From Rhodococcus pseudokoreensis (lineage in GTDB: Bacteria > Actinomycetota > Actinomycetes > Mycobacteriales > Mycobacteriaceae), in assembly GCF_017068395.1 (NCBI RefSeq), contig NZ_CP070615.1, positions 62,001 through 126,000 of the forward strand: DNA of 64,000 bases, given 5' to 3'. Shown here piece after piece: positions 11,413-45,306 of this stretch. The stretch's first letter is position 1. Each line of letters begins with the position of its first letter. Made by a program: the position numbers and the translations under genes. Under the pieces are notes generated by a model. The model made no database searches, was not told where the DNA came from, and saw nothing but the letters and a program-made list of their open reading frames with translations.

Positions 11413-11431
11413 GGACTAAGGAGTGGTACCG

Positions 11432-19326: not shown

Positions 19327-20384
19327 GCAGCGCCTACAGCCTCTCCCGCAAGGACGGGTGGCGCCGGTTCGTCGACACCGCGCCCCGCACCCGGCCCGAC
19401 ACCCTTACCGCTACGGCGTTGTCCGCCTTGGGGAGTGACGCCCGCGAGGACTATGACGACGCCCGCCACGACTGGCACGCCAACTTCGGCACCATCGCCA
19501 CCCCGCAGCTGAAGGCGGTGCGCGACGAATTGGAGTTGATCGTCGCCTCGAATCGTCAAGATCCCGATCGTGTTCGGGGCGCGGCGGTCATCGACGGGTT
19601 CCCCGGTCTGGGCAAGACGACCATCGTCAACCTGTTCGGCCGCGACTATCACCGCCAGGCCCTGCGTCGCCGCGGCCCGGTCACCGAGTCCGGTGATGAG
19701 CACATTCCGGTGTTCCGGGTCGGTCTGACCTCGAACACCACGCTGCGGACGTTGAACAAGATGATCTGCCAGTTCTACGGGCATCCCGGCGCCGATCGCG
19801 GCAGCGCCGCCCAGTTGGCCACCTACGCCCTGGACTGCGTCCTCTCGTGTGATTCGCGGGTCGGGATCATCGATGATATTCACTTCATCGACCAGAACAG
19901 CCGAGACGGGCTCGCCGTCAGCAATCACCTGAAATGGCTGGCCAATGAGCTGCCGGTGACGTTCATCTACGCCGGAGTCGGTCTCGGAGAACGCCGGTTC
20001 TTCGAGGAGGGCCTGTCCGGGTCCTCGGCCGCGTTGGCGCAAAGCGCCCGGCGCTGGACCCGCCTCGAAGTCGGCACCTTCGCCCACGACCGTCACTGGA
20101 AATCCCTGGTCAAGGCGGTCGACAAACAGTTGGTGCTCACCTGCTGGCAGCCCGGACAGCTCACCGGCCTGGCCGACTACCTGTTCGCCCGCACCGGCGG
20201 GCACATCGGGTCGCTGATGACGCTGATCAACCGCGGCTGCTTCAAAGCGATCCGCACCGGAGCCGAGGCGATGTCACAGGAGCTGCTCGACACCGTCCGC
20301 ATCGACGAAGCCTCCGAAAAGGCACGCCACCGGCTCGAAGCCGCGACCCGCACGAGAGTCGAGCGCAAGCAGGTGAGGCGATGA
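19323..20384 (+). CDS. tnsC: TnsC/TniB-like AAA+ transposition regulator
   Basis: 353 aa from GTG 19323. AAA+ ATPase with Walker A GFPGLGKTTIVN and Walker B VGIIDDIHFID, followed by sensor-type SNHLKWLANELPVTFIYAGVG. TnsC-type proteins bridge the target selector (TniQ/TnsD) and the transposase and confer target immunity. The 4-bp overlaps with both neighbours indicate one operon read from the left end. Confidence 0.92.
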   Translation: MSSAYSLSRKDGWRRFVDTAPRTRPDTLTATALSALGSDAREDYDDARHDWHANFGTIATPQLKAVRDELELIVASNRQDPDRVRGAAVIDGFPGLGKTTIVNLFGRDYHRQALRRRGPVTESGDEHIPVFRVGLTSNTTLRTLNKMICQFYGHPGADRGSAAQLATYALDCVLSCDSRVGIIDDIHFIDQNSRDGLAVSNHLKWLANELPVTFIYAGVGLGERRFFEEGLSGSSAALAQSARRWTRLEVGTFAHDRHWKSLVKAVDKQLVLTCWQPGQLTGLADYLFARTGGHIGSLMTLINRGCFKAIRTGAEAMSQELLDTVRIDEASEKARHRLEAATRTRVERKQVRR

Positions 20385-26703: not shown

Positions 26704-28442
26704 CGGCACGCCAGCCGGGCAAACTCCGCCGCCGCAGCCCGACCAGGGTTCGGGAGCCGGAACCATCCCGGCAGGAGATAGGGCCGGTGACCGCGATGGT
26801 GAGGCGAACGTCGCGACCGAATCTGATCGCGCTCACGATCGACCCCGCAACGTGGGGGCCAGCGGAACCGCTGGGACGAGAAGTGGCGAACGCATGGAAG
26901 GCGAAACACCATCAGGGAAGCTGGAGTTCGGCGTCGCTCGGGCTTACTGCTTTCAACAAGATGGCGGCGATCGTTCGCCACCGCAGTATCACTTGCTGGG
27001 ATCACGTGACAATCGCCGCGCTGGAGGAGCTTGAAGGTCAGTGCACGAAGCGCGGCCAAGCTCGGTTCATCTGGGATGTCCTGCGGTCCCTTCCCGGCAT
27101 GTCGACCAATGGGCGGTTGGCTGCGGAAGTCGCCATCTTTGTGCAGTCCAATCCGCGTGTCGCCGAGCGGCGCGTGGTACCCACGGAGGCGCTTCCGCAA
27201 GCCTTGCTGCGGGATGTTCTGCGTGCGGCGATGCACGATGTCGCCCAGTGCGAACGCCGGATTGAACAGGCAGCGTGGGACGGTGAGTCCCCGCCGCCCC
27301 TGGGTGCGTTCATCCGTCGACACGAGACTATTGCGTTCTACGTGCTTCTCTGCATGGAGTGGGGGCAGTCTCCTGATGTGATCCGGATGCTGTCCTTCGA
27401 CAGCAGTCAGCCTGTCGCCGTTCTCGATTGGCACGACGGCCATCCACGAGTGGATGTCCGATGGTTCAAGAACAGAGGGGGCCGCCAAGGCGTCCAAACG
27501 TTCCTCGCTGACAAACAATGGCGCGCAGGTTCACTGCTGCGACGCCTGCGCGCTGCCACATCAGCTACACGATCGGTCGCGCCGACCGAGTGGCGTGCCC
27601 ATCCCTGGATATGTACCGACGTGATCGACCCACGTGGCGTGGGAGCAGTGTCTGGGCTGGTCGTCGCGCGAACGGCGAGCAGGAGAGCAGTAAAGGTCAG
27701 CGCTGTATTCGATGAGGGCAAGAATAAGATGACGTTTCTGGCATGGTGCCAGCATCCGCGTAAACCGGGCCTGGACTTCTCGATTCCGACGAAGTTCACT
27801 CGTGGAGAATCGCCGGATCCGTTGCACTACCGGGCGATACGTCCGGCCGCCAAATGGGCGCGGTTCACTGCCACAGGCAAAGGTATGCTCCTGTCGGAGT
27901 TGGTGGACGACAACACGATCGAGACACTGTCTGCTCACTACCTCAACTCCGAAGTCGCCATGCGTGATATCGCGGAAGCCTGGCAAGACATCCCCGGGAT
28001 GGCCGAGGAGGTTGCTCGTGGACTCCGGCCGACGGCAATCAACAATGACGGCGCTGTCGTCAGCGGTCTCGAGCTCGACGACGATGAAGTCGCGGCGGTA
28101 ACACGTGGCGAACGGCGCGTAGGTATGAGCAGCTGTCGGGACCCTTACGACTCACCGTTGCCCGGAGAATCCAGCGGACGACTCTGCAAGTCCGCTAACC
28201 GAGGTTGCTATTTCTGCCCGGCCAGTGTTGTTTCGCCGGATGACATCCCATTCATGAAAGCATTCCTGCTGCTGGCAGAGAGCGCGGCTGCGGCGATGTC
28301 TCCACCCGAGTGGGCTCTGCATTGGGGGCGCACCGTTCGCTGGATCAACCACGTGATGCCGCAGATGGACTCGAACTGGGAGGCCACGGCGATCGCCCCG
28401 CCGGGAGTACTCGACCTGGGCCTTGAGGCGTCACCAGCATGA
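26700..28442 (+). CDS. Second recombinase-set protein (TnpB-like)
   Basis: 580 aa from GTG 26700. It corresponds by position and size to TnpB of Tn554-type elements. Visible features are a helical N-terminal region, YVLLCMEWGQSPDVIRMLSF (integrase-like first-Arg helix region), DFSIPTKFTRGES-PDPLHYRA, and a Cys cluster CKSANRGCYFCPASVV near the C-terminus suggesting a metal site. A full R-H-R-Y set was not confirmed by eye. It overlaps both neighbours by 4 bp. Confidence 0.75.
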   Translation: MTARQPGKLRRRSPTRVREPEPSRQEIGPVTAMVRRTSRPNLIALTIDPATWGPAEPLGREVANAWKAKHHQGSWSSASLGLTAFNKMAAIVRHRSITCWDHVTIAALEELEGQCTKRGQARFIWDVLRSLPGMSTNGRLAAEVAIFVQSNPRVAERRVVPTEALPQALLRDVLRAAMHDVAQCERRIEQAAWDGESPPPLGAFIRRHETIAFYVLLCMEWGQSPDVIRMLSFDSSQPVAVLDWHDGHPRVDVRWFKNRGGRQGVQTFLADKQWRAGSLLRRLRAATSATRSVAPTEWRAHPWICTDVIDPRGVGAVSGLVVARTASRRAVKVSAVFDEGKNKMTFLAWCQHPRKPGLDFSIPTKFTRGESPDPLHYRAIRPAAKWARFTATGKGMLLSELVDDNTIETLSAHYLNSEVAMRDIAEAWQDIPGMAEEVARGLRPTAINNDGAVVSGLELDDDEVAAVTRGERRVGMSSCRDPYDSPLPGESSGRLCKSANRGCYFCPASVVSPDDIPFMKAFLLLAESAAAAMSPPEWALHWGRTVRWINHVMPQMDSNWEATAIAPPGVLDLGLEASPA

Positions 28443-30664
28443 CGACACCTATGCGTCAGGACGCCACCAGACCGCTCATCGCCGCACCTGGCGGATGGCT
28501 CAAGAGCGAATCCATCTCCGACTACGAACCCGTGTTCACCGGGCTGTGGTTCAGCCGAGACCCACAGCCGAGGTTCGGCGACGCCGTCTGGAACCTCACT
28601 GGGCGCGACCCCGTCCAGACTCGATCCACGTGGCGGATTGACTTCACAGATCTAACCCCGGAATGGGGTCTCATCGCCCGTGAAGTGATCTACTGGCGAG
28701 CCAACATCGACAAGGCGCGGCACCGCTTCACCATCCGGTCCCCGCGGTCACAGCAACGCATGTTCAAGGCTGTAACCATCTTCACCTGGCGCATGATGCT
28801 CGGTCGGGTAGCCGAGATGTCGGCGACACTCGGGATCGGGCTGCCGTCACGATGGGGCTCGAACGAGACTGAAATGTTGCGCGACTACATCCGCGGCAAC
28901 GTCCCAAACGCCCACTACGGGAACATCGTCAGCGTGCTGCATCAGATGCGGGACGTCCTCACATTGGGTGGGCTCAGCCATGATCCGACACTGGAGATGG
29001 GAACAGCCCGATGGTCCGGGGATACCGCAATCAACCGGGACCGGACCTCCAAAGCGCTGGAGCCGCAGGTCTTTCAACAAGTCGTCGGCAATGCCCTCAC
29101 CTATATCGACAAATGCTCAGATGACATCCTCAGAGCTGCCGGCTGGAAGGACGCCTACACGCCCACAACCATGGCTCTCGGCGCACTCGCGCTGGATCAC
29201 CCCGTTCGGATGCAGCATCCCGAGGTCAACTCGCAACGAGCCCTCATTCTGCACGACACGCTCGAACGAATCGGCGGAATCCCAACGGCAACAGTCGCAT
29301 CGAGCACAGGGCGCGGCGGGGGCATCGGGGGATACTGCCGACGCACCTTGCATGCTGCCGCCGGGCTCAATCCCAAGTCCCGTGGGGCCAGCCAGGACTT
29401 CACGCGACCGTTGATCGACGCCAGACTCCGCGCTGGCACGCCACTGGTTCCCGGCGGTCTACCACTGCCGGTGGCGGTCATCGACCGCCCGGACGGAACA
29501 TCCGGGCCTTGGCGAGACCCGTTTTGCTGGGACTCAATCGACATCGAGGCGCAGACGCTGAGCTTCGCCTGCAAGATCGTGATCATGGCCTTCACGGCGA
29601 TGCGTGTATCCGAGATGGAGCTGATTCCCCGTTCCGGCTGGCGAACAACATGGATGGGCGCCGACGCGATTACCGCGCCGCTTGTCAAAAACGCGTGGGG
29701 TGAGCCGATGAAATGGTGGGCCACACCGCCCGTCATTCGTGCCTGCGAGATCCTCGAGCAACTCGCCCGAGGTGACTACCTGTTCGACCACCGAGGGGTG
29801 AGGAAAGGCATCGAACCGGGCAAACGCAAGGAAATCGACGGCGCTGTCTGGGACGGTGTCCAACTATTCGTGCGCCGGTTGAACACCGATCCCTCGCTGC
29901 ATGGCTTCAACCCCGTTCGCGCCGGGTGGGGCAAGACTGGGCACAAGGACCAGCAGAAGAACGACCAACTGCCCACAATCAGTCCCCACAGGTTCCGCTT
30001 CACGCTCGCATCCATCAGCAACTTCGTGGCACTCGGTGACGTAGCTTTCCAGCAGCAGGCAAAGCACGCGAAAGTCGCGATGAGCCACTCGTATCAGGCG
30101 AATTCGGGAACACGGAACTGGAACGACATACTCAACACGGTCCTCGACTCCGAGGCCGACAAGCGAAGCGCCAAAGCCTTCGACCTCCATCTGGGGGTCT
30201 GGACCGGTGAAGCTGAACTGGCTGGTCATGCCGGGCGAGAGTTGACCCGCACCGTGCGCGACCTCCTCGACGATCTTCCGCTCGACGAGTACGACCCCCA
30301 CAGCGAAGAATCGCAGGTCGACCAGTTCACCACCCAGGTCGTCCAGATTCCCGAGCTTGCCGCAGCCATTCGATCCACAGCTGTGCTTCTGCATCCAGGC
30401 ACGATCTGCCACTGCCTTCGCTATACCCAGCAGATGGAGTGCACCAACAACACCGAGCCCAATCTCGGGATGTGCCATCCGCAAACGTGCGCGAATGTGC
30501 TCCTCGAACCAGAACACTCAGCGGTCTATCGAGCACGCCGCGAACAGACGAGACAGTGGTTGGCTACTCCGGGCATCTCGTCCACCCAGTCAGCGATTCT
30601 CGAGCGCGCCATCGGGCAGATCGACGCCCAACTACGAACAGAGGACAACGCTGATGGCGCTTGA
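28439..30664 (+). CDS. Third recombinase-set protein (integrase-like)
   Basis: 741 aa from ATG 28439. Integrase-like motifs: MAFTAMRVSEMELIPRS (first Arg), SPHRFRFTLASI (H-x-x-R) and KVAMSHSYQAN (likely nucleophile Tyr). Near the C-terminus there are Cys/His-rich segments (TICHCLRYTQQMEC, MCHPQTC). The three overlapping recombinase genes act as one unit in related trio elements. It overlaps the small HTH gene by 11 bp. Confidence 0.8.
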   Translation: MTTPMRQDATRPLIAAPGGWLKSESISDYEPVFTGLWFSRDPQPRFGDAVWNLTGRDPVQTRSTWRIDFTDLTPEWGLIAREVIYWRANIDKARHRFTIRSPRSQQRMFKAVTIFTWRMMLGRVAEMSATLGIGLPSRWGSNETEMLRDYIRGNVPNAHYGNIVSVLHQMRDVLTLGGLSHDPTLEMGTARWSGDTAINRDRTSKALEPQVFQQVVGNALTYIDKCSDDILRAAGWKDAYTPTTMALGALALDHPVRMQHPEVNSQRALILHDTLERIGGIPTATVASSTGRGGGIGGYCRRTLHAAAGLNPKSRGASQDFTRPLIDARLRAGTPLVPGGLPLPVAVIDRPDGTSGPWRDPFCWDSIDIEAQTLSFACKIVIMAFTAMRVSEMELIPRSGWRTTWMGADAITAPLVKNAWGEPMKWWATPPVIRACEILEQLARGDYLFDHRGVRKGIEPGKRKEIDGAVWDGVQLFVRRLNTDPSLHGFNPVRAGWGKTGHKDQQKNDQLPTISPHRFRFTLASISNFVALGDVAFQQQAKHAKVAMSHSYQANSGTRNWNDILNTVLDSEADKRSAKAFDLHLGVWTGEAELAGHAGRELTRTVRDLLDDLPLDEYDPHSEESQVDQFTTQVVQIPELAAAIRSTAVLLHPGTICHCLRYTQQMECTNNTEPNLGMCHPQTCANVLLEPEHSAVYRARREQTRQWLATPGISSTQSAILERAIGQIDAQLRTEDNADGA

Positions 30665-32971: not shown

Positions 32972-33173
32972 GCGCAGCCGCCGCAATTACAACCCGAAGT
33001 CGCGCACACCTATCCAGGGGAGATAGACCGGTGCACCCAGGCCGAACGAGGCTATAGCCCCGGCTCCCTCATCGTCACGCTCGCCGTCGCGGCGATCTGG
33101 TCGGTCTTCCAATAATGCGTGACGTCCTCGACGAGGGATCGCGAACGCGAGCGGTTCGCCTGACTCCGCCCTA

Positions 33174-33575
33174 CTAGGAGCTCTTGAAGAGGGAGTTCTT
33201 CGTCGAGGAAGCCGGCACGACCTCCAGCCGCTGTAGCTCAGCACCGGCACCGGTGACGTCACCGTCAGCTTGGTCGAGTATTTGCAGGCCTTTCTCAACT
33301 GCGCGCCAGTCCGCTGACAGATCGAAATATCCTAGGAGATCAACGACCTCGGCGACCCACCGTTTCGCGCCGCGTCTGTCACGTCGCAGCTGGGCGTAGT
33401 AGGTCACCATGGCGTCGCTCACCGACTTCTTGCGCTGCCCCCACTTCTCGCCCTTCCGGGCCGCCTCACTGGCCAGTTGCCACAGCTGTGCAACGTCGAC
33501 GTGCCGATCCAGCACCGGTTCCCTCACACCTGGCACAGTAGCGATCCAACAGGAGAGGTGATAGCGACCCTGCAT
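33174..33575 (-). CDS. Hypothetical protein
   Basis: 133 aa from ATG 33575 (upstream in-frame ATG 33644 possible; neither has a clear ribosome site). Helical and charged: DVAQLWQLASEAARKGEKWG, MVTYYAQLRRDRRGAKRWVA, DLSADWRAVEKGLQILDQ. Not recognised. Coding potential is moderate, as an opposing open frame exists. Confidence 0.4.
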   Translation of the reverse strand: MQGRYHLSCWIATVPGVREPVLDRHVDVAQLWQLASEAARKGEKWGQRKKSVSDAMVTYYAQLRRDRRGAKRWVAEVVDLLGYFDLSADWRAVEKGLQILDQADGDVTGAGAELQRLEVVPASSTKNSLFKSS

Positions 33576-33690
33576 GTAGCCGATCGGCAAGCGCTTGGCG
33601 CGCCCGATGCGGCAGTCGGAGCAAGATCGAATCGAACTCGGCAAATATCGGCGGCTTGCACACCGAACCCGTACGGGTTAGTCATGTCTT

Positions 33691-33885
33691 ATGACCGAGA
33701 ATTCGGGAACCCGCGAGGGTTTGCGGGTGGGTGACCGTGTCAAGGTGCACGCCGAAGGCGCATCGGTGTTCGTCATTGTGAGCGTCGAGGGTGAGGACGC
33801 GCTGATCGAGTCCGTCGACGAGGGGGCGCCGGGCCGCTTCCCGTTCCACTGCAAACTGTCGCGGCCCGTGCCCGCTGAGTCGTAG
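33691..33885 (+). CDS. Small beta-rich hypothetical protein
   Basis: 64 aa from ATG 33691. The sequence alternates strands and turns (GLRVGDRVKVHAEGASVFVI, EGEDALIESVDEGAPGRFPF), like a small SH3/KOW-type barrel. No motif is diagnostic. No strong ribosome site. Confidence 0.5.
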   Translation: MTENSGTREGLRVGDRVKVHAEGASVFVIVSVEGEDALIESVDEGAPGRFPFHCKLSRPVPAES

Positions 33886-34096
33886 CCGCGTTCTCTGCTC
33901 GCGGTCCTGGACGGCTCGGCGGCGGATCTGCACGGTGGGGTTGGGGCAGCGCTGCGGATTTCGGGGGTCGGCCAGGTCGGCAACCAGGGCGCGCCCGGGA
34001 TCACTATCCCGGGCGCCCGCTCTGTCCTCGATTCCGCGGCAGGCAGAGGCTCTCTACCGCCCCTCGGCCGGCCCCCGGCACTGCGATCCGATGTCA

Positions 34097-34522
34097 TCAC
34101 CCGTGGTGAAAACCGCACTCCGTAGCGGTTGGAGAGGCGGCCAGGAACGGTCGCACCTCGAGCCACTCGTGGATCGGTTTCCCGTCCGCACCCGGGGCCG
34201 CGGACAGTTCGCCGGCCAGCTCGAGTGCCCGCTCGTAGGTCTCGACGTCGATCACCATCCAGCCGGCGATCAGGTCCTTGGTCTCCGCGAACGGGCCGTC
34301 GGTGACCGACGGTCGCCCCTCGCCGTCGTAGCGGACGAACGTGCCCTCCGGGGAGAGTGCCTGGCTGTCGACGAATTCGCCGGTGCCCTCGAGCCGGGCG
34401 GCGAAGTCGTTCATGTACTGCACGTGGGCCGAGATCTCCTCCGGCGTCCACTGGTCCATCGGTACGTCGTTGACCGATGCCGGCGCGCCGCGGTAGTGCT
34501 TGAGCAGCAGGTACTTGGCCAT
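34097..34522 (-). CDS. YCII-family protein
   Basis: 141 aa from ATG 34522 (the adjacent ATG 34525 is equally possible; GAGGAGAAC upstream). YCII-related fold: MAKYLLLKHYRG, EEISAHVQYMNDFAARLE, a GEFVDSQALSP loop, VTDGPFAETKDLIAGWMVID (the DGPFxE(T)KE motif typical of this group) and EVRPF near the end. Such proteins are often called DGPF-domain or ECF-sigma-associated proteins. No partner sigma gene is next to it. Confidence 0.85.
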   Translation of the reverse strand: MAKYLLLKHYRGAPASVNDVPMDQWTPEEISAHVQYMNDFAARLEGTGEFVDSQALSPEGTFVRYDGEGRPSVTDGPFAETKDLIAGWMVIDVETYERALELAGELSAAPGADGKPIHEWLEVRPFLAASPTATECGFHHG

Positions 34523-34710
34523 CATGTTCTCCTCTGGTGCGGTACGGCCCATTGTGGCTGTTTCACTCGGGGGACGAAGTCGCGCGTGGGTTCTCGACAT
34601 CCCACAGCGACATTTTCCTGGCCATCTTCTCTGTCGGATCTTGTCTCGACGCTTCCCGTCCCGGTCGCCGCTGCAGCGATCGAAGTCTCACCGCATGTAA
34701 AGCGGAGGCG

Positions 34711-35565
34711 TCAGACGAACTCGCGGATTCGGGGGAGGACTTGGGCGAGTTCCTCGAAAAGGTTCGGCCATCCGCGGCGTAGCCGGGTGATGCGTCCGTG
34801 TTCGAGGAAGGCGCCGTCGAGCATGTGGGAGACCCGCAGGTGTTGTTCGGGGGTGCCGAGTTGGCGGAGTTTGTCGTAGACGGGGTTCACCGGTAGTTGG
34901 TGGTGGGCGATGTATGCCCAGATCTCATCGATGCTCCAGTCCCATATGGGCCCGAAGACATGTGTTCCGTCGGCTCGGTCGATGAGGCCGCCGTGGTGTC
35001 GGCGTTGCTCTGTGGTGTTGGTGCAGCAGCCGTCGCAGTCGCGTGTGACGTGGCTGCTGAGTGCGTTGTAGTACAGCGACCAGCGTCCGGTCCCTTTCGG
35101 GGATTCGTCGGCTCGTACGCCCCAGATTTCTCCTGGCCCGTGTGCTGCGTGTGCCGCGCGGGAGGGTGCACCGATGAGGATGTCGCGCAGTTTCTGGCTC
35201 GTGGCCCGGGTGGGCTGTTGGTGGTCCCATTCGCCGGATTGTGCGAGGACTGTCAGCAGTGGTGGGTCGGCTCGGTGGGGTTCGAGGTTGAGGTTCCAGG
35301 TGTCGGCGAGTGCGGTGATGTAGGTGTAGGTCTCGGGGTACTCGAGGCCGGAGTCGAAGAACACGACGGGGATGTTCGGTTCGATCTGCAGGGTGAGGTG
35401 GAGTGCGACGAGTGAGTCCTTGCCGCCGGAGAAGGCGAGGTATCCGTCGTGGTCTTCGAGGTGCCCGGCGATGCGGCCGGTGAGGGTTGCGAGGTCGCGG
35501 CGGGGACGGCGCAGTGCCCGGAGAGTGTTCAGGTCCAGGCCGTCGGGTTCGGGCTTGCCCGCCAC
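34711..35565 (-). CDS. cysH: CysH-like PP-loop ATPase of the type IV-B CRISPR locus
   Basis: 284 aa from GTG 35565 with a strong GAAGGAGGACGT ribosome site. PP-loop: YLAFSGGKDSLVALHL, the ATP-pyrophosphatase motif of PAPS reductase-like proteins. Further: VVFFDSGLEYPETY, a cysteine group RDCDGCC, and FGPIWDWSIDEIWAYI, all typical of the CysH-like family. It is divergent from csf1 across 130 bp. Known: type IV-B CRISPR-Cas loci are characteristically linked to a cysH-like gene, whose role is unknown. Here the link identifies the subtype. It is not next to any sulfate-assimilation gene, so sulfur metabolism is unlikely. Confidence 0.9.
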   Translation of the reverse strand: MAGKPEPDGLDLNTLRALRRPRRDLATLTGRIAGHLEDHDGYLAFSGGKDSLVALHLTLQIEPNIPVVFFDSGLEYPETYTYITALADTWNLNLEPHRADPPLLTVLAQSGEWDHQQPTRATSQKLRDILIGAPSRAAHAAHGPGEIWGVRADESPKGTGRWSLYYNALSSHVTRDCDGCCTNTTEQRRHHGGLIDRADGTHVFGPIWDWSIDEIWAYIAHHQLPVNPVYDKLRQLGTPEQHLRVSHMLDGAFLEHGRITRLRRGWPNLFEELAQVLPRIREFV

Positions 35566-35612
35566 ACGTCCTCCTTCACGGTGTCCGGTCGGTATCGAGA
35601 TCTCGCAGTTTC

Positions 35613-35647
35613 TGTCACACAGTGTCCGGTGTGCGGATCTTCCTCCA
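35613..35647 (+). promoter_or_regulatory. 35-nt conserved leader motif, copy B, in the cysH-csf1 divergent region
   Basis: TGTCACACA (35613-35621), ten variable bases, TGCGGATCTTCCTCCA (35632-35647). It lies 48 bp upstream of the cysH start and 48 bp upstream of the csf1 start, i.e. in the middle of the divergent promoter region. In frame it reads LSHSVRCADLPPVVGAV then stop, parallel to the MSH...DLPP peptides of the other two copies, but with CTG instead of ATG. Confidence 0.6.
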
Positions 35648-35695
35648 GTCGTAGGGGCGGTTTGAAGTCGCGCCTGGGCATGTGAGGAGTGTGGT

Positions 35696-36373
35696 GTGGG
35701 GAAACTGTGCGAGGTGGCCGGCCGGCAGGACGTGGTCGCCGCGGCATTCGCGTCGAGGAAGACGCGCGAGGTAGTCGAGGTGGCGAGGGTGGGCCGGTGT
35801 GCGAGATGCGCAGCGTCCCCGGTTCCGGTGGAGGCAGTGGCCAAGGTGGTCTCCCGAACGTTCACGGGTTTCGATTCGTGGAAAGCGCCCGCGGAGGGTG
35901 GGCTGTGCACGTCCTGCGCCTGGGCCTACCGGCACCCGGATCTGCGCAGAAGCATGCATGTGGTCACCACACGACCAGCAATGAGGGCAGTGACCGCGGC
36001 GGATCTCGAACGGATCTTGTCGCGGCCGCTCGAGCCGGATACCGCCGTGGTGGTGCCCTTGCGGCCCGGCCGAAAGCACATCCTGCCGCACGCACGGTGG
36101 GGCGGGATTGCGGTCGAGGACACGTGCCTGCCCTGGACTACGCGTGACGTCGCGGCGGTGACAGCGATGCGCCGACTGCGGGCGCGGGGGTTCGGTGCCC
36201 GGATGCTCGCCGAACCTGCGGCCCCGTATCCGGTGCTCGCCACGATCGTCTCCAGGCGGTGGCCGGCGGTTTTCGCGGACTGGGATCGACTCGCCCCGTA
36301 CCGCCAGATCGGGCAGTGGTGGGAGCTCGCACTGCGAGCCACCGTGTCGGCGAGTGAGAAGGGAACGAAATGA
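35696..36373 (+). CDS. csf1: Csf1 (type IV CRISPR large-subunit-like protein)
   Basis: 225 aa from GTG 35696 (GAGGAGTGTGGT upstream). A zinc finger made of C35-A-R-C38 and C71-T-S-C74 is the hallmark of Csf1, the reduced Cas8-like subunit of type IV effector complexes. The C-terminal part is basic and helical (VTAMRRLRARGFGARMLAEP, IVSRRWPAVFADWDRL). It is the first gene of an operon in which every junction overlaps. Assignment rests on the finger, size and the following cas7/cas5-like genes. Confidence 0.85.
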   Translation: MGKLCEVAGRQDVVAAAFASRKTREVVEVARVGRCARCAASPVPVEAVAKVVSRTFTGFDSWKAPAEGGLCTSCAWAYRHPDLRRSMHVVTTRPAMRAVTAADLERILSRPLEPDTAVVVPLRPGRKHILPHARWGGIAVEDTCLPWTTRDVAAVTAMRRLRARGFGARMLAEPAAPYPVLATIVSRRWPAVFADWDRLAPYRQIGQWWELALRATVSASEKGTK

Positions 36374-36786
36374 CCAGCCCGACCGATCGATGGCTCGCGG
36401 CCGCACCGGCGGGGCTGCCGCCGCTCGAGGGTCCGGCGTCGACGGCAGAACGCCTGCTGCTGTTGCTGCACTACGGGATCGACTGGGATTCGGGATGGGT
36501 CGGCCGGCGGCGGGAAACGTACTGGACCCAACACCTGCCGAACCGTGTTCGGGTCGCCACCTATATCGGTGGCGGCGATCTCGACCGGTGGTGGTCGGTG
36601 GTCTCACGGTCCCTCGAATCGGAACCGACGAACACCGACCAACGGCTGGAACTGGCGACGTTGCTGCGTGAGGAGTCCGAGCCGGTGCTGACGTTGCTGC
36701 GTGAGCGTCCCACGTCGTACGTGCTGCGCACGCGGATCGTCGCCGAAGCCGTGGCCGCCGCTCGCACTTCGGGAAGGAAGAAATGA
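36370..36786 (+). CDS. cas11: Cas11-like small subunit (type IV-B)
   Basis: 138 aa from ATG 36370, overlapping csf1 by 4 bp. All-helical protein: STAERLLLLLHYGIDW, HLPNRVRVATYIGG, LDRWWSVVSRSLESEP, RLELATLLREESEPVLTLLR. Position between csf1 and csf2, helical content and length fit the small subunit (cas11) of type IV-B complexes. Sequence alone is not diagnostic. Confidence 0.7.
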   Translation: MTSPTDRWLAAAPAGLPPLEGPASTAERLLLLLHYGIDWDSGWVGRRRETYWTQHLPNRVRVATYIGGGDLDRWWSVVSRSLESEPTNTDQRLELATLLREESEPVLTLLRERPTSYVLRTRIVAEAVAAARTSGRKK

Positions 36787-37652
36787 TGAGGTCGACGGTG
36801 CGCTGGGATGTCGAGCTGACCGCGCTGTCCTCGATCTCCCAGAAGGGGGAGGACTCCGGAACGACGACGACACTGTTCCGGCGCGAGCCGGTGATCCAGC
36901 CGGACGGAAAGCCGGTGCTGGTGCCCATCGTGTCCGGGAACTCTCTACGCGGCGGGTTGCGCAGGATCGCCGAGGAGCTGTTCCGCGATGTCATCGGCTA
37001 CGAACAGCAGATCCCACTCTCGGCGGCGCACGCCCTGCGCAACGGTGGCTCTTTGACGAAGGTCACCGGCGACGGTCTGACCGGTCGCCGGCGGCAGCGA
37101 CTGCGGGAGCTGGTTCCCCCGATCGGGGTGTTCGGCGGCAACGGCGGAGGTCAGCCACCGATCGATGGCTGCCTGAAGGTGGGCAAGGTCATCCCACGGG
37201 TGCGTGAGACCGAGACAATCATGACCCGGGCGTATGACGGCCGGTTGATGAGTCAGTTCGAGTTGGTCTCCCTGGAGAGCTACAGCCGATTCGACGACAC
37301 CGACACCCGGACGTTCCCCGAATCCTCCGCGGGTGGCGCCGCCGGCAAAGATGCCGGCTCGTCGATGCTGATGCGATTCGAGGTCGAAACACTCCCTGCG
37401 GGAACCCGTTTCGAAACCTTCTTGCGGCTGGACCGGGCCACCCCGCTCGAAATCTCGTTCTTCACCGATGTGTGGGGCAGATTCGCGCGTGACGGATTCC
37501 TCGGAGGGCGCAGCGCGATAGGTCACGGGCGGGTCCGCGCCGAAACGGATCGGATGGTGTTGGCCGGCCCGGACCCGCAGTCAGTGGACTGGCGCGTCGA
37601 GCTCGCACCACTGCGCGATGAGGTCATTGAAGCATTGTGCTGGCTGACATGA
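36783..37652 (+). CDS. csf2: Csf2 (Cas7-like RAMP backbone protein)
   Basis: 289 aa from ATG 36783 (overlaps cas11). RAMP/Cas7 features: SSISQKGEDSG near the N-terminus, VPIVSGNSLRGGLRRIAEEL (the Cas7/Csm3-like G-N-S-L-R-G motif), LVPPIGVFGGNGG (Gly-rich), and a C-terminal GFLGGRSAIGHGRVRAE Gly-rich loop. Cas7 proteins form the helical filament that binds RNA. In type IV-B this filament assembles without a dedicated crRNA array. The stop overlaps csf3 (ATGA). Confidence 0.9.
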   Translation: MMRSTVRWDVELTALSSISQKGEDSGTTTTLFRREPVIQPDGKPVLVPIVSGNSLRGGLRRIAEELFRDVIGYEQQIPLSAAHALRNGGSLTKVTGDGLTGRRRQRLRELVPPIGVFGGNGGGQPPIDGCLKVGKVIPRVRETETIMTRAYDGRLMSQFELVSLESYSRFDDTDTRTFPESSAGGAAGKDAGSSMLMRFEVETLPAGTRFETFLRLDRATPLEISFFTDVWGRFARDGFLGGRSAIGHGRVRAETDRMVLAGPDPQSVDWRVELAPLRDEVIEALCWLT

Positions 37653-38374
37653 CGGGCACGGAGGAGATGGCACCGTTCCTGGTGCGGGCGCACCTGTCGT
37701 CGGGACTGGCGCACGCGACGCCGTGGGGAATCAGTCTCGACGGGATCCTCGCCGCCGAGCTGTGGGCCGATCACAAGGCCGCGGCACTCGACCGAGGCGA
37801 GTATGTGCCGGCGCTGACACCCGAGTGCGCCCCGCCCGACCTCGAGCTGCCACTGGCTCGGTGCGAGCTCGCAGGCGAGGACTGGCATTGGTGTGCGACG
37901 TGCTCGTTCCCCGAGGACCCGGCCGGTGATCCGGTGGTGCGGCACTGGGCGTCGCGGGCCGATCACCGCGGGCTCGAGCAACTCAGTCACACGCTGCCGG
38001 CGGTGATCTCGGATCGGCAGGGCCGCTACCGGGCCCGCTACATGCCCCTGATGATTACCAGCACTCGCACGGTCACCTGGCGCGGAGTCGGAGATGTCGA
38101 CGCCGTCGCCACGATCCTGGGTGGCCTGGATGTCATCGGCAAGAAGCGGGCCCATGGTGAGGGCCGGGTCCTGCGGTGGGAGTTCGAACACTGCCCCGCC
38201 GCCGACCGGTGGGCGGCGGCGCACCTGCATAGCGACGGCACTCTCGGGCGCACCACACCACCGGCCTGCGTGGCCGATCGACTCGAACCGGAATCGGCCG
38301 GCTTCGGGTTGGCCGGCCTGCGGCCGCCGTACATACACCCGACCCGAATGAGGCAACTCCACCTACCTCGGTGA
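37649..38374 (+). CDS. csf3: Csf3 (Cas5-like protein)
   Basis: 241 aa from ATG 37649, chosen for the ATGA overlap with csf2. Cas5-like RAMP: VRAHLSSGLAHATPWGISLD at the start, RYMPLMITSTRTVTWRGVGD in the middle and LDVIGKKRAHGEGRVLRWEF, the Gly-rich loop of the fold. Cas5 caps the Cas7 filament. It is the last gene of the operon; no cas6/csf5, dinG/csf4, cas1 or cas2 follows, as expected for subtype IV-B. Confidence 0.88.
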   Translation: MTGTEEMAPFLVRAHLSSGLAHATPWGISLDGILAAELWADHKAAALDRGEYVPALTPECAPPDLELPLARCELAGEDWHWCATCSFPEDPAGDPVVRHWASRADHRGLEQLSHTLPAVISDRQGRYRARYMPLMITSTRTVTWRGVGDVDAVATILGGLDVIGKKRAHGEGRVLRWEFEHCPAADRWAAAHLHSDGTLGRTTPPACVADRLEPESAGFGLAGLRPPYIHPTRMRQLHLPR

Positions 38375-38375
38375 G

Positions 38376-38394
38376 CCGCCGCGTGGTGCGGCGG
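38376..38394. terminator. Short GC hairpin between convergent genes
   Basis: CCGCCGC (38376-38382), loop GTGGT, GCGGCGG (38388-38394). It lies just after the csf3 stop and before the end of the opposing lipoprotein gene, so it may serve both transcripts. Confidence 0.55.
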
Positions 38395-38402
38395 TTCGCC
38401 GC

Positions 38403-39026
38403 CTATTCGGAGCGCGCGAGGTCGGGCACAGCGACTGGTTCGGGCAGCATCCAGCGAGCGAGTGGGGTTTTCGACTCGTTCGGAGGATAGAGCGCGACCT
38501 CGGTGATCGACACGTCGTCGGTCAGCTTGTCTCCGATTCCGGGGAACAGGACGAGGCCTTCGGCGTGGCCGTCGAGGGCGTTGTTCCCGATCGCGGTGGG
38601 AATGTTGCCCCAGGAATCACTGCCGGTGATGGTCTGTCCGCTGAGTGTGCGGACCTTCCAGTTGGTCGATGTCGCGTTCAGGGTTCCGGAGTCGACGTCG
38701 AGCACAATCGGGAATAGCAGTATCCGCGGCTCCCCCATGGAGGTCTTTTCGATCAGCTGGGGTTCTTTCACCTCGATGCGGGCGGTGACGTCGGCGGCGG
38801 TAATGGTCTGGGCGGTTCCGCCGATGGTGTCCGAGCCATCCGACGAGATCGTAGTCTGGTTGGTTGCCGCGGTAGTGGTCGTAGATCCGGTGGTGGTCAT
38901 TGCAGCGGAGGTAGCGGTCTGACTAGTGGGAGCGGCCTGTTCGTCGCCGCTGCCACATCCGGACAGGGTCAGTCCTAGTGCGGTGCAGGCAGTCACGGCC
39001 GCAATTGCGGTTCGGCGGATGACCAT
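38403..39026 (-). CDS. Putative lipoprotein
   Basis: 207 aa with lipobox LSGC (Cys 24), followed by a Thr/Ser/Ala-rich linker to about residue 70. The folded part is beta-rich (ARIEVKEPQLIEKTSMGEPR, ILLFPIVLDVDSGTLN, NWKVRTLSGQTITGSDSWG), resembling immunoglobulin-like MPT63/DUF4352-type exported domains. Convergent with csf3; not evidently part of the CRISPR operon. Confidence 0.75.
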   Translation of the reverse strand: MVIRRTAIAAVTACTALGLTLSGCGSGDEQAAPTSQTATSAAMTTTGSTTTTAATNQTTISSDGSDTIGGTAQTITAADVTARIEVKEPQLIEKTSMGEPRILLFPIVLDVDSGTLNATSTNWKVRTLSGQTITGSDSWGNIPTAIGNNALDGHAEGLVLFPGIGDKLTDDVSITEVALYPPNESKTPLARWMLPEPVAVPDLARSE

Positions 39027-39276
39027 CGTTCATTTCCCCTTTTCTCCCCTGGCTGACCGGACGCCCTGCGAACAGGATGGTGGTCAGCCTCCATGTGCGC
39101 GTCCTGGTTGTGGCGCGGACGACGCCCCCTGAGCGTAGCGGTGTGGGACCGGTGTCCTGTCGTGGGCGTCGCGGAATGGGTTGACATGGACTGTGAACCG
39201 GCGGAGATCTAGGCCAGTCCAGGCGTCTCCACCCTGTTGATGAGTGTTGGGTTTGTCGAGCACGTTCAATTACGCG

Positions 39277-39501
39277 ATGTCACACACCACGTATGCCGCG
39301 GATCTTCCTCCCAGTGACAACAACCCGCATTTCGTCGGAGAGGGCACCACGGATATGACAGATGACCCAATCGGACTGGTCTCGGATTCGTCGCTGGAAC
39401 CTTGTGGGTCCCGGTGCGAGTTCGTGTGGAGCTGTCCAGGTCCGGCGCTACCGTTCGCTCCACCAGGCACCAGGCACCAGTTGCGAGAGAGCGAGGAGTG
39501 A
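39277..39501 (+). CDS. Short ORF beginning in the 35-nt leader motif (copy C), upstream of whiB
   Basis: 74 codons from ATG 39277: MSHTTYAADLPPSDNNPHFV then DMTDDPIGLVS and a Cys-containing tail. It ends one base before the whiB start, an arrangement suited to translational coupling or attenuation. The N-terminus parallels the ORF at 11251. No clear ribosome site; leaderless translation is possible. Confidence 0.4.
   Translation: MSHTTYAADLPPSDNNPHFVGEGTTDMTDDPIGLVSDSSLEPCGSRCEFVWSCPGPALPFAPPGTRHQLRESEE
39278..39312 (+). promoter_or_regulatory. 35-nt conserved leader motif, copy C, upstream of whiB
   Basis: TGTCACACA (39278-39286), ten variable bases, CGCGGATCTTCCTCCC (39297-39312). Same spacing as copies A and B. 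It lies 191 bp before whiB and 251 bp upstream of the divergent lipoprotein gene. Confidence 0.6.
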
Positions 39502-39502
39502 G

Positions 39503-39772
39503 ATGACAATCGAGACCGATACACGGCTGCTAACGGCAGCAACGGCCGCCGCGCCGGGGTGGCGCGACTTCGCGCTGTGCCGAGTCACCGATCCGGAAGC
39601 GTTCTTCCCCGAGACAGGCGAAAACGGGCGCCCCGCGAAACGGGTGTGCGCGGGCTGCGAAGTTCGCGAGGCCTGCCTAGCCGAGGCGCTCGCCCACGAT
39701 GAGCGGTTCGGGATCTGGGGTGGACTGACCACGGCCGAGCGCCGCAAGTACCACCCGAAGCGCCGCCGATGA
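39503..39772 (+). CDS. whiB: WhiB-family iron-sulfur transcriptional regulator
   Basis: 89 aa from ATG 39503, with GCGAGGAGTGAG upstream. WhiB signature: single Cys in ALCRVTDPEAFFP, then C-x2-C-x5-C in RVCAGCEVREACLAEAL (four Fe-S ligands), GIWGGLT (the G-[IV]-W-G-G turn) and a basic C-terminus ERRKYHPKRRR. WhiB-like proteins bind a [4Fe-4S] cluster and the primary sigma factor. It is plasmid-type in context and may regulate neighbouring genes. Confidence 0.92.
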   Translation: MTIETDTRLLTAATAAAPGWRDFALCRVTDPEAFFPETGENGRPAKRVCAGCEVREACLAEALAHDERFGIWGGLTTAERRKYHPKRRR

Positions 39773-39964
39773 CCGCCACGGCCGTGTACTTCGCACACAG
39801 AGCGCAATCCGTCCGGCTCCTCAGTCCCGACCGACACGACACGCCATGACACGCCCAATTCGGAATCAGTTCGCTATGATTCAGCGGAGCCAGAGGCGCC
39901 GCTGGCACTGAACAACCCAATTCATCGGTGACACGGCCTATTCCGTTTACGCTACGGTCATCCC

Positions 39965-40225
39965 ATGCGTGATCTCCTCGAACAGACCGTCCGCTACCTC
40001 GAAGCCCTCTCCGACGCCGCCATGGACGCGTCGCCATCCACGGACGCCTCGTTCGTGGCTGAGTTCGTCGAAGCCCTCCGCGAGTGTGCGGAGGCCGTCA
40101 AGACTGCCCGTGAGGACCTGATCGACACCGGTCGCCCGATCAACCCTGTCTACTCGCACCCCGGCGACGAGGACACACGGGAAGAACTCGCCTCGCGACT
40201 GACCGCGCATCTCTTTGCCGAATAG
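39965..40225 (+). CDS. Small acidic helical protein, hypothetical
   Basis: 86 aa from ATG 39965. Helical with Glu/Ala/Leu (RDLLEQTVRYLEALSDAAMD, FVAEFVEALRECAEAVKTAR). No motif recognised. Confidence 0.55.
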   Translation: MRDLLEQTVRYLEALSDAAMDASPSTDASFVAEFVEALRECAEAVKTAREDLIDTGRPINPVYSHPGDEDTREELASRLTAHLFAE

Positions 40226-40261
40226 TCCGCTCCGCTCGCCGTCGAGCCGCCAAATTGGCGT

Positions 40262-40785
40262 CTACTCCGCAGGGCCAATAACGCGGATGGGTGGAGTCAG
40301 GAGGACCTCCCATGTCACGGGTACTTCGTGGTCCGGGCTTTGCTGGGACCAATAGCAATGGGAGTGATACGACGTCATCAGAGCGGTGCCGGGGGCGCGG
40401 AGCAGCTCCATGTTGGCCCGGAATCCGTCGCTATCGGTCTCCACGAGCCAGATCTTGGCTGCTTCAGTCGGATCGAAGGCAGTTCGGAAGGCACGGGCTT
40501 CGTCGAGTGTGTCCACTGCGAATGCGGATTCGAAACGAGAGGGTGCGGTCGGAAAGTGTGCACGACGGACGTTTTCCCAGATCAGCTCGATCAGATGGTC
40601 CGTGACTTGAAACTGAGCGGCCGCGTTGACGAAGTTGATTTCACCGTGCGCAGCAACGCCATTGGGAAATAGGACGTCAAGGTGCTGTTGCAGCGCTGTC
40701 GGTATACGTCGTCGTACCGGGTGAGCTCGAGCGACAGTCCCTCGTGAAGGGTTCCTCTTCGATCGACGGTGTAGAAGCGCGGCAT
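40262..40785 (-). pseudogene. DUF2441-like gene with a frameshift
   Basis: The start is at ATG 40785: MPRFYTVDRRGTLHEGLSLE then LTRYDDVY, the family N-terminus. About base 40703 the family sequence continues in another frame as TALQQHLDVLFPNGVAAHGE and NVRRAHFPTAPSRFESAFAV to the stop at 40262. One missing base explains this. The protein class is often found in mobile-element and plasmid contexts; function unknown. It could be a sequencing error. Confidence 0.7.
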
Positions 40786-40901
40786 TCTGAAACCTTCTCT
40801 GGCTGTGCGTGATAGTCGGGCTCAGCATCCGGACTGCCCGTCGCCCATATTGGAAATATTGTGTCCACCCGGCGCCGCCTGTGTGGGCGGCGCTCAGCTG
40901 G

Positions 40902-41408
40902 TCAGGTGGTGGTATCGATATCGATGGTTCCCTCGGCTCTGCCGTCGAGGGCGGGGAGCGGGTAGTGCGGGCAGGTGACTATTTGAGGGGGCACGAGAAT
41001 CGCCCGCCGGTTGCTGTCGAGGTAGAGGCGATAGGCGAGCTGACCGTCCCGGTGGACACCGGTGGCTGGGTCGACGGCGCCGAGAAAGTACCCTTGCGCG
41101 GCGTCGACGGTTGAGAAGATCGTCCGAGCCCATTCAGCGGGCTCGGTGGCCGGCAGATGCCGGGGCTCGCCCGTGTGCGCGTCGACGGTGTGCACGATGA
41201 CGGTGACAGTGAACCCGGTAGCCGCGGGGAACCACGCCGCGGCCGGGGCTACGAACGATGCGATGGACGTGTGGATCTGCAGCCTGATGTCCGTTCCGGT
41301 GCGGGCCACCGCCGTGATGGTGTGCGAATCTGCCGGGAAGTCATCGGTGGCCAGGTGTGGCAGCGCGCGGTCGGAGTCGGCGTGGACGCTGCCGGGATCA
41401 GCGGGCAT
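40902..41408 (-). CDS. Hypothetical protein (complete copy of the family fragment at 31.7 kb)
   Basis: 168 aa from ATG 41408, overlapping the upstream 109-aa gene by 11 bp. Two-part sequence: a beta-rich N-terminal half (DIRLQIHTSIASFVAPAAAW, GFTVTVIVHTVDAHTGEPRH) and a C-terminal half with ATGVHRDGQLAYRLYLDSNR. No signal peptide. Unknown family, but a decayed copy 9 kb away shows that it moves or duplicates. Confidence 0.7.
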   Translation of the reverse strand: MPADPGSVHADSDRALPHLATDDFPADSHTITAVARTGTDIRLQIHTSIASFVAPAAAWFPAATGFTVTVIVHTVDAHTGEPRHLPATEPAEWARTIFSTVDAAQGYFLGAVDPATGVHRDGQLAYRLYLDSNRRAILVPPQIVTCPHYPLPALDGRAEGTIDIDTTT

Positions 41409-43658: not shown

Positions 43659-44008
43659 GCGGGCTCCCTGATTTCGAAGCTTGGTGCGAGCAGTGGCCGG
43701 CCACCCCGACATTGCGCCGCTGCGTCCCGCCTCGTCCGGTGATTGTCGAGATGAATCGTGCTCTCCCGCTTGCCAAACATGCCCAACGCCCCGATCGACT
43801 GCCACTGCGAGTGCTTGCCGGTGGTCTGCGGGTCGAGGGAACCATGCACGCGGAATTGTTCGCCTGGGTGAAATTGACCGATGGCCAGTGGCTGGCTTGT
43901 GTTTGTGTTCCGGCTCGATCGGGGGATGGACGAACCGGGCTGGATCTGTGGTTATGGGTGACCGCCGACGCGGTGAGTGATTGCGAGCCGCGCGCCGGCG
44001 ACCGCTGA
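43655..44008 (+). CDS. Small protein co-expressed with the ImuA'-like gene, hypothetical
   Basis: 117 aa from GTG 43655, 4-bp overlap. Contains WCEQWPATPTLRRCVPPRPV, LRVLAGGLRVEGTMHAELFA and a C-terminal LDLWLWVTADAVSD. Not recognised. As the second gene of an SOS operon it may be a damage-response accessory, possibly a diverged replacement for ImuB's interaction part; that is speculation. Confidence 0.65.
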   Translation: MSGLPDFEAWCEQWPATPTLRRCVPPRPVIVEMNRALPLAKHAQRPDRLPLRVLAGGLRVEGTMHAELFAWVKLTDGQWLACVCVPARSGDGRTGLDLWLWVTADAVSDCEPRAGDR

Positions 44009-44066
44009 TTCCCCTGGGATATCCGCCGGCCCGCAGACGATCTTTCGGCGGCGCCGGGTGGGTGTC

Positions 44067-44107
44067 GTCCCGCGTCCCCGGCACAGGGTGCGCCGGGGAC
44101 GCGGGAC
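44067..44107 (+). terminator. Very strong hairpin terminator, 16-bp perfect stem
   Basis: GTCCCGCGTCCCCGGC (44067-44082) pairs perfectly with GCCGGGGACGCGGGAC (44092-44107) across a 9-base loop. It separates the SOS operon from the MoxR/VWA operon, so the latter is probably not SOS-driven by read-through. Confidence 0.85.
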
Positions 44108-44205
44108 GAGCACAGTACCCCTATTTGTGCAGGTCAGGCCGTATGCTCGAGGAGTCTAATTCGGTAGCGAGACTGACCAACTCGCTCGACTCTGGAGGAT
44201 TTTCT

Positions 44206-45306
44206 GTGGCTGATTTGGCGACTGCTGTGACGGTGTTGGATGCGAATGGGCGGGCCGGTGTTCCGTCGTTGTTGATCTCGGGTCCGGGTATGGGTAAGTC
44301 GAGTCTGGTGCGGGGGTTGGCGGCGTCGGACGGGGTGCTGTGCGAGACGGTCCTCGGGTCGTTGCGGGAACCGGCCGACTTCGCTGGCCTGCCGGTGGTG
44401 CGTGAGCACGGGGTGACGTTGGAGGCTCCGGACTGGGCGAAGCGCATTCACGCCGACGGTGGTGGCTATCTGTTTCTGGACGAGTTGACGACGAGTCCGC
44501 CTGCGGTGCAGGCGGCGATGCTCGCGGTCGCGTTGGACCTGAAGGTCGGTGATCTGCAATTGCCGAAGGGAACGCGGGTGATTGCGGGTGCGAATCCTCC
44601 CGATTGTGCTGCCGGTGGGTACGAACTGGAAGCGCCATTGGCGAATCGGTTCTGCCATGTGGAGTTCACTCCGTCTGTTGACGAGTGGTTGGACGGTATG
44701 GCGACAGGGTGGGCCACGCCGCCCGCCTCGCGTGCGGTGGCGACGGACGAACAGCGCGTGGCGCTGGTGCGTAGTTCGATCACCGGGTATGTCCAGCGCA
44801 ACCCGGAAGCGTTGGACGCGTTCCCGTCGTCGGCGGCGCAGACCGGGGGAGCGTGGCCGTCGCGACGCACGTGGGCGATGTTGGCGGCGGTGTTGCCGCA
44901 TCTGCGTGACGACGACAACGCGGCGATCAATGCGGCGGTGTTCGGGCTGATCGGTGAGGGGACCGGTGTCGAGTTCCTGGAATGGCGCAGGAATGCCGAT
45001 CTGCCCGACCCGGTGGCGGTGATCGAGAATCCGGAAACGGCGTTCGACTGGCAGTCTCGTCCGGACCTGGTGTGGGCAGTTCTGTCGGGTGTGACGGCGT
45101 GGGCTGCGGGGCGGGGCACTGTCGAGGCGTGGCGCAGCGCGTGGGGGCCGCTGATTGCGGCTGCGGAAGCGGGTGCACCTGATGTGGCGGGCGCTGCGGC
45201 GCGGACGCTGGCGAAGGCGCGGCCCGCCAAGGCTGTGGTTCCGGCTGCGGCGAAACGGTTCTCCCCGATGTTGGTGGCTGCGGGTCTGGTCGGTGAGGCG
45301 GCGTGA
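44206..45306 (+). CDS. MoxR-family AAA+ ATPase
   Basis: 366 aa from GTG 44206, six bases after GGAGGAT; longer starts overlap the terminator region. Walker A GPGMGKSSLVRG, Walker B YLFLDELTTSPP, sensor 1 RVIAGANPPD and arginine-finger region ANRFCHVEFTP. MoxR ATPases act as chaperones for VWA-domain partners and metal-cofactor assembly; here the partner is the next gene, which it overlaps by 4 bp. Confidence 0.88.
   Translation: MADLATAVTVLDANGRAGVPSLLISGPGMGKSSLVRGLAASDGVLCETVLGSLREPADFAGLPVVREHGVTLEAPDWAKRIHADGGGYLFLDELTTSPPAVQAAMLAVALDLKVGDLQLPKGTRVIAGANPPDCAAGGYELEAPLANRFCHVEFTPSVDEWLDGMATGWATPPASRAVATDEQRVALVRSSITGYVQRNPEALDAFPSSAAQTGGAWPSRRTWAMLAAVLPHLRDDDNAAINAAVFGLIGEGTGVEFLEWRRNADLPDPVAVIENPETAFDWQSRPDLVWAVLSGVTAWAAGRGTVEAWRSAWGPLIAAAEAGAPDVAGAAARTLAKARPAKAVVPAAAKRFSPMLVAAGLVGEAA

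Follow-up and report, generated by a model that had tools for sequence, protein, structure and literature searches.

The DNA considered here is a stretch of 64,000 nucleotides from Rhodococcus pseudokoreensis, termed the window throughout, which comprises bases 62001-126000 of the 320,146-base contig NZ_CP070615.1 in a genome of 9.87 Mb and six contigs. The contigs of this source genome (G000) are denoted C1-C6, the window lying on C2; L-numbers denote compared loci and G-numbers sampled genomes. The window harbours a type IV-B CRISPR-Cas locus, in which csf1, cas11, csf2 and csf3 are encoded on the same (plus) strand, each gene overlapping the next, and a divergent cysH-like gene, coding for the protein CasCysH, is located 130 bp from csf1 (Table 1). 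A further gene about 20 kb from cysH encodes a protein with weak similarity to ADP-ribosyltransferases (ART-like protein). C2 is probably a plasmid, judging from its being a separate contig and from plasmid records that share 92-97% identical DNA with it; the nearest DNA to the window is from Rhodococcus, and both comparisons cover a plasmid collection only, not chromosomes.

Table 1. Features of the type IV-B locus, the ART-like gene and the intervening genes (positions in the window).
Feature	Position	Strand	Remarks
cysH-like gene (CasCysH)	34711-35565	-	284 residues; PP-loop SGGKDS; GTG start preceded by AAGGAGG
Divergent intergenic region	35566-35695		130 bp; promoter-like by eye; the one non-coding stretch of the module
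csf1 (Cas8-like large subunit, two CxxC)	35696-36373	+	PADLOC type IV Cas8, 8.5e-87
cas11 (small subunit)	36370-36786	+	PADLOC type IV Cas11, 2.5e-62
csf2 (Cas7)	36783-37652	+	PADLOC type IV Cas7, 9.7e-105; 7jhy Csf2, E 1.5e-58
csf3 (Cas5)	37637-38374	+	PADLOC type IV Cas5, 7.3e-102
Gene for ART-like protein (family A9)	14003-14890	+	295 residues; candidate sixth IV-B component (co-occurrence, proximity, weak ART similarity)
Transposition-type genes between ART-like gene and cysH	17008-23353	+	772-residue helix-turn-helix (HTH) protein, 353-residue open reading frame (ORF), 990-residue TniQ protein
Gene of the phage integrase family, followed by two large ORFs	25147-30664	+	Phage_integrase 34.2 bits, first ORF only

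The assignment to type IV-B is close to certain, since Csf2 aligns over residues 2-289 of 289 with the Csf2 of the solved IV-B complex from Mycobacterium sp. JS623 (7jhy), and since Cas11, an adjacent cysH and an array-free contig accompany it. A sequence-only reading had already named the locus in this way, based on a PP-loop CysH-like protein with the motif SGGKDS, a Csf1-like protein with two CxxC pairs, a small subunit, a Cas7-like protein with GNSLRG, a Cas5-like protein and the overlap of all four csf genes. These elements are present in the sequence and its coordinates, and the cysH product matches PF01507 at 78 bits (cut-off 22.5). The profile search which that reading proposed for the csf families gave a divided answer: the PADLOC type IV profiles recognize all four genes, and the NCBIfam models for csf1, csf2 and csf3 yielded sub-cut-off matches only (18.2/140, 44.2/130 and 40.3/140 bits, respectively), which counts against the assignment. 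By comparison with the annotation of R. jostii RHA1, a csf3 start at 37649 appears likelier. According to an excerpt of the structural study (PMC7937560), JS623 has the same four csf genes; its sequence is distant from that of the window. Much closer is the IV-B locus on plasmid pRHL2 of R. jostii RHA1 (NC_008270), which shows the same gene order with a divergent cysH and 92.5% DNA identity over 75% of window positions 33000-41000; RHA1 harbours another IV-B locus on pRHL3. Type IV-B, its cysH, the absence of an array and the RNA filament are already in print, and as a locus the present one is a regular representative of a known kind.

Purifying selection acts on all five genes, with ratios of nonsynonymous to synonymous substitution rates (dN/dS) of 0.05-0.36 in 30 gene comparisons with six relatives; together with the ordered arrangement of the five genes, these values exclude a chance origin. 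Moreover, cysH and the csf genes diverge in a correlated manner: Mantel coefficients between CysH and the Csf proteins amount to 0.88-0.94 in 30 loci, compared to 0.82-0.95 among the Csf proteins themselves, and were reached by none of 999 permutations. In Csf1, the CxxC pairs are formed by C35/C38 and C71/C74, and the four cysteines as well as a basic stretch, PLRP.RKH, show no variation among 41 aligned sequences; when the set is widened to 48, C35 alone is invariant, and the other three cysteines are retained in at least 90%. A structural comparison matched Csf1 over its whole length to Csf1 of type IV-A, the zinc-finger domain of which contacts the protospacer-adjacent motif, as stated in a passage of PMC11519345. 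The IV-A-like fold of the entire protein suggests that the IV-B particle can still engage DNA.

Repeat and tandem-repeat searches did not reveal any CRISPR-like array, nor did a periodic-repeat script applied to the whole of C2, to C3 and to a 40-kb portion of C1; the script recovered an implanted array, and C4-C6 as well as most of C1 were outside the scan. The earlier observation that the window is free of CRISPR repeats was therefore corroborated and holds for the complete contig. Cas1 was not found in the whole genome, and Cas6 of family PF10040 gave no match there (the search did not extend to other Cas6 families or to Csf5); the PF10040 model produces matches in 2 of 14 control genomes. 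Csf4/DinG of type IV-A yielded matches below the cut-off on contig C6 only, as it did in 12 of the 14 control genomes. A nearby array with csf4, which the sequence-only reading had regarded as a mark of another subtype, is thus unsupported, and so is an assignment to type IV-A, the members of which (PDB 7xg1) comprise an array, Cas6 and DinG and lack Cas11, as described in parts of PMC8175902 and PMC7937560.

A dedicated guide RNA in the window's module was likewise considered and dropped, given that merely 130 bp are non-coding, without a fold signal or an Rfam match. This region is conserved in blocks around TGTCACAC and around GGATCTTCC, as an alignment of eight loci shows. Its folding z-scores (-0.04 and -0.50) are no better than those of shuffled sequences on either strand, a sigma-70 scan did not detect a promoter in it, and Rfam returned no match within the window. 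At the IV-B locus of contig C3, the profile matches of cysH and csf1 end only approximately 50 bp apart. Loci of this C3 type have csf1 and cas11 spaced 135 bp to 1.3 kb apart, and therefore a guide RNA may be possible there.

CasCysH carries an S-x-GKDS motif in all 55 homologue rows of the alignment, and the SGGKDS of the window protein is a PP-motif of the ATP type. The fold is that of adenosine phosphosulphate (APS) and phosphoadenosine phosphosulphate (PAPS) reductases, CysD and FAD synthases; TtuA, LarE and NcsA are among the lower-ranked neighbours in the matches listed. We rejected an identity as APS/PAPS reductase, because the C-terminal catalytic cysteine of these enzymes is missing, and by its motif CasCysH is predicted to be an ATP-using enzyme. 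The window protein contains three cysteines in 284 residues, Cys177, 180 and 181, which lie between two helices behind the arginine loop, off the reductase position. In a homologue set that leans towards near relatives, a cysteine occurs at position 177 in 44/55 and at position 181 in 45/55 proteins. Ten of 31 linked loci feature a loop without cysteine, despite the presence of the csf genes.

Two further complete IV-B loci, both accompanied by a cysH of their own, are present in the genome on C1 and C3; their csf2 genes are 55% and 48% identical to that of the window. Two of the three CysH proteins possess the cysteine cluster; the one encoded on C3, which is among the ten loci mentioned above, is cysteine-free. 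These loci were outside the view of the sequence-only reading, the entry of which on the IV-B locus also does not list the ART-like gene in the window. In a sample of 28 genomes of the genus, nine had a csf2 match, eight of them full-length, and five of these eight harboured two or more copies. This small sample touches on the idea that IV-B systems of the same clade are incompatible within one cell; the idea was abandoned, and the presence of two close relatives among the systems of Rhodococcus sp. WAY2 speaks against it.

The ART-like family, with members of about 300 residues, emerged when every open frame up to 11 kb from csf2 was clustered for 22 spread loci, 17 of which contained it as the one non-core family; the other large clusters corresponded to the core genes, five in number, and to shadow frames on the antisense strand. 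Among plasmids of the PLSDB collection that carry the family, 54 of 56 also carry csf2 (among the matches listed, 60 of 62 csf2 records) and 55 of 56 carry CasCysH, compared to csf2 on 37 of 60 plasmids with a neighbouring VWA-domain gene used as a control (listed matches, 60 of 70). The family is missing from 6 of 60 csf2 plasmids among the matches listed. In genome samples, every csf2-positive genome contains the ART-like family, that is, nine of nine in the genus (28 sampled) and five of five in the order (397 sampled). In a sample of 396 genomes of the phylum, csf2 and the ART-like family were found in the source genome only; for the order and the phylum few first-look candidates were scored per genome, and misses are therefore possible.

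The ART-like gene is not only present in the same replicons but also tends to be located close to cysH. In 55 plasmids the gap between the two is below 1 kb in 26, below 5 kb in 37 and below 10 kb in 42, compared to 0, 4 and 18 of 35 plasmids for the VWA control (35 of 36, since record NZ_CP088909 with a gap of 13 kb was left out). These counts use one place per record, so that some of the long gaps may be mispairings, and include related plasmids repeatedly; for NZ_CP050125 and NC_008271, which have two copies each, the copy nearer to cysH was used, and the best-scoring copy gives 25, 35 and 40 of 55. Within 5 kb of the ART-like gene, cysH is present at 14 and csf1 at 10 of 21 loci, which were picked by csf2, a choice that favours a nearby cysH; no other family exceeds eight once shadow frames are removed. 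The arrangement varies: the gene is found on the same strand upstream of cysH in L013, L016, L085 and L011 and is convergent with it in C1, C3 and L009. In L011 and L013 cysH is distant from the csf genes, and the ART-like gene remains beside cysH. On pRHL2 the distance to cysH is 4.1 kb, in contrast to some 20 kb with intervening mobile genes in the window. The correlated divergence includes this sixth gene, with Mantel coefficients of 0.90 relative to csf2 and 0.83 relative to cysH (20 loci), and its dN/dS is approximately 0.1 (three comparisons). A degenerate partial copy with four in-frame stops is located on another contig of the source genome (G000:C5:25718-26116).

Regarding the nature of the protein, the family profile produced one significant match among solved structures, the C3-type ADP-ribosyltransferase 1ojq (E 3.9e-4, best stretch 0.0022). 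The significant stretch is short; another one, collinear with it at LLPRG, does not reach significance by itself. Two of ten members matched the Pfam family ADPrib_exo_Tox (PF03496) at E 0.15; the window copy was not one of them and matched only DUF6257 at 0.088. At a threshold of 0.01, none of five members matched a Pfam family, and in a set of ten no match came near a cut-off. Scans of 14 members against PHROGs and NCBIfam returned nothing better than E 0.06, and UniRef labels two near relatives "ADP ribosyltransferase". Conserved residues across 132 sequences include R179, H181, Y184, D212, H219, H222, E236, Y244, H256 and LPRG at 258-261. By eye, this set differs from the R-S-E residues, which we take to be the canonical catalytic set of the ADP-ribosyltransferase class, and for this reason the protein is named ART-like and not filed as an ADP-ribosyltransferase.

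In sum, our main explanation is a six-gene IV-B system, the chances of which we judge to be about even, and we are equally divided on whether the ART-like protein is a functional part of IV-B. Going further, we tentatively propose, with more doubt than conviction, that the protein is an unreported sixth component of IV-B on actinobacterial plasmids and that it is paired with CasCysH in a nucleotide-transfer module steered by the Csf ribonucleoprotein (RNP), such that IV-B would be an RNA-associated modification system and neither a nuclease nor a plain sponge. Linkage supports the pairing of the two proteins; the chemistry, like their steering, is what we infer. According to this model, Csf2 and Cas11 would coat cellular RNA, not array-derived RNA, in the way the JS623 complex did in E. 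coli (PMC7937560), and Csf1 and Csf3 would cap the particle and could probe DNA as in type IV-A. CasCysH would spend ATP, release pyrophosphate and thereby activate or adenylylate a substrate, on which the ART-like protein may perform a second nucleotide-transfer step; the substrate could be an RNA end, a target nucleic acid or a protein. The module would be ATP-dependent and possibly NAD-dependent as well. The Csf particle would steer the pair to a nucleic-acid or protein target, and as an outcome a competing element would be modified or silenced, not cleaved. The modification mechanism taken by itself appears unlikely to us. In line with the proposed steering, a 2021 review put forward, in the part concerned with CasCysH, that the RNP recruits this protein for nucleic acid modification (PMC8175902).

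Several findings weigh against a sixth component. In the window itself 20 kb, mobile genes included, lie between the ART-like gene and cysH, and the assignment to the ART class rests on a single profile match and sub-threshold Pfam matches. The heterogeneous RNA bound by the solved IV-B complex (PMC7937560) also counts against the main explanation. Among 52 csf-bearing stretches or contigs, some of which overlap, 29 include the ART-like gene; of the 23 that lack it, eight are phage or viral, and among the remaining ones some have the gene further off. Conversely, G284 contains an intact ART-like copy, with csf2 and CasCysH not detected, and partial copies occur without csf2 or CasCysH in G392 and G410; these three genomes show weak CysH matches only, at 20-37 bits. 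G411 has an ART-like copy along with csf2 fragments, CasCysH not being found, and plasmid NZ_CP092102 carries the gene without csf2 or cysH. Furthermore, the plasmids are related, and therefore neither the counts nor the Mantel values are independent; the Mantel tests were done without an unrelated control gene, and the csf2-based choice of the 21 loci adds to this. Part of the linkage could simply be plasmid backbone, as 18 of 35 plasmids also have the VWA control less than 10 kb away from cysH.

These points lead to the possible, if somewhat less probable, explanation that the locus is a standard five-gene IV-B system, and the ART-like gene is a mere backbone gene without a role in a family of IV-B-carrying plasmids. 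The relatedness of the plasmids, the 20-kb distance in the window and the recurrence of other neighbours such as the VWA gene are all in keeping with a backbone gene, as are the phage and viral IV-B stretches, which lack the gene over the approximately 8-9 kb at most that were available on each side. Other observations speak against a backbone gene: no other non-core family recurs as often near csf2 or near the ART-like gene when shadow frames are excluded, the gene stands beside cysH in several arrangements, and its co-occurrence with csf2 is far tighter than that of the VWA control. Rather doubtful, in our view, is an RNA sponge, in which the Csf filament soaks up small RNAs including guide RNAs, thus shielding the plasmid from RNA-guided defence of the host, and CysH has a side function. 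The idea was named by the authors of the solved complex, which according to an excerpt of their paper was assembled in E. coli on heterogeneous RNA of about 55-60 nt (PMC7937560), and it agrees with the array-free contig. Yet, the full IV-A fold of Csf1 and the invariant PLRP.RKH exceed what a sponge would need, both cysH and the ART-like gene diverge in step with the complex, and the genome, being devoid of Cas1, gives no sign of another CRISPR system with guides to absorb.

A very unlikely explanation is that CasCysH thiolates nucleic acid, and the Cys177/180/181 cluster of the window lineage holds a metal or iron-sulphur centre in the manner of TtuA or NcsA. The frequency of Cys177 and Cys181 among the homologues and the appearance of TtuA, LarE and NcsA as fold neighbours fit with such an activity, and tRNA thiolation by TtuA and NcsA is linked to iron-sulphur clusters in the abstracts of PMC7138817 and PMC10067955. 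Nevertheless, the ten loci noted above, that of C3 included, have the csf genes without a cysteine in this loop, the cluster does not occupy the reductase position, and the 2021 review, in the pertinent section, argued against thiolation (PMC8175902).

The genes between the ART-like gene and cysH in the window include TniQ (Pfam, 58.5 bits) and HTH domains within 17008-23353, the 353-residue ORF having been outside the Pfam scan. The segment 25147-30664 is a possible second mobile element, the two large ORFs following the integrase gene being without a Pfam match at E 0.001. Genes between cysH and csf1 vary by lineage, and the MinD/ParA-like ATPase encoded there in C1, L009 and L017 was dropped as a specific partner, since this MinD-like protein occurs on 299 plasmids at E 1e-10. 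The gene directly upstream of the ART-like gene, present on 31 plasmids only, 10 of them from Prescottella, was likewise dropped. A gene pair at 43981-46556 recurs near IV-B in Rhodococcus and on some mycobacterial plasmids, as well as on csf2-free plasmids; its first member (43981-45306) has no Pfam match and resembles ORFs beside annotated AAA/ATP-binding proteins in relatives, and the second (45303-46556) is a VWA/DUF2201 gene.

Several variant loci were observed. A 4.7-kb element that encodes two tyrosine recombinases and contains a DUF6262 gene interrupts csf1 in L008 (positions 6208-11585; Rhodococcus sp. WAY2 pRWAY03), and its two flanks have about six bases in common (window 36113-36118). 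On WAY2 plasmid NZ_CP046573 the match start is one base off, and the cysH-csf2 distance is similar. Six non-Rhodococcus loci (L012, L035, L038, L039, L041 and L087) contain an ORF of approximately 76 residues with a C...CxxC pattern between csf1 and cas11, which is not present in the window, where the two genes overlap. In two C3-type Rhodococcus loci (L014:8187-8423 and L018:8184-8420), a small annotated ORF that looks membrane-spanning is located in the csf1-cas11 gap of about 520 bp. L084 (G400) and L040 (R. jostii NBRC 16295) appear to be decayed systems, in which cysH is fragmented and csf2 is spread over two reading frames. The Skermania phage SPI1 (L019) and the viral contigs L020-L026 contain csf2 and csf3; in L019-L024 the cysH match is short or interrupted, and only L019 and L021 gave matches to csf1 and cas11. 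On the viral contig L022, approximately 3 kb from csf2, the periodic-repeat script flagged a cluster at 4497-4660, which we read not as a CRISPR array but as palindromic GACTCATCGGACAAAATGTCC-type repeats in both orientations; L026 was likewise flagged.

A link between an ART-like gene and type IV-B is not mentioned in those portions of the literature on type IV-B, CRISPR and CysH that were covered, with supplements, preprints and many journals outside this scope, and it may have been noted elsewhere. In a table of a 2024 review, type IV-B is listed with heterogeneous RNA and with target and mechanism unknown, and type IV-C is also given as unknown (PMC11127173); passages in PMC8175902 and PMC7937560 state the role of the IV-B cysH as an open question. 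An ART-like partner would extend the recruitment idea of the 2021 review. Since the ART-like gene follows cysH from genus to genus, the question of CysH becomes a question about two proteins, and the three diverged IV-B systems within a single genome offer natural comparisons.

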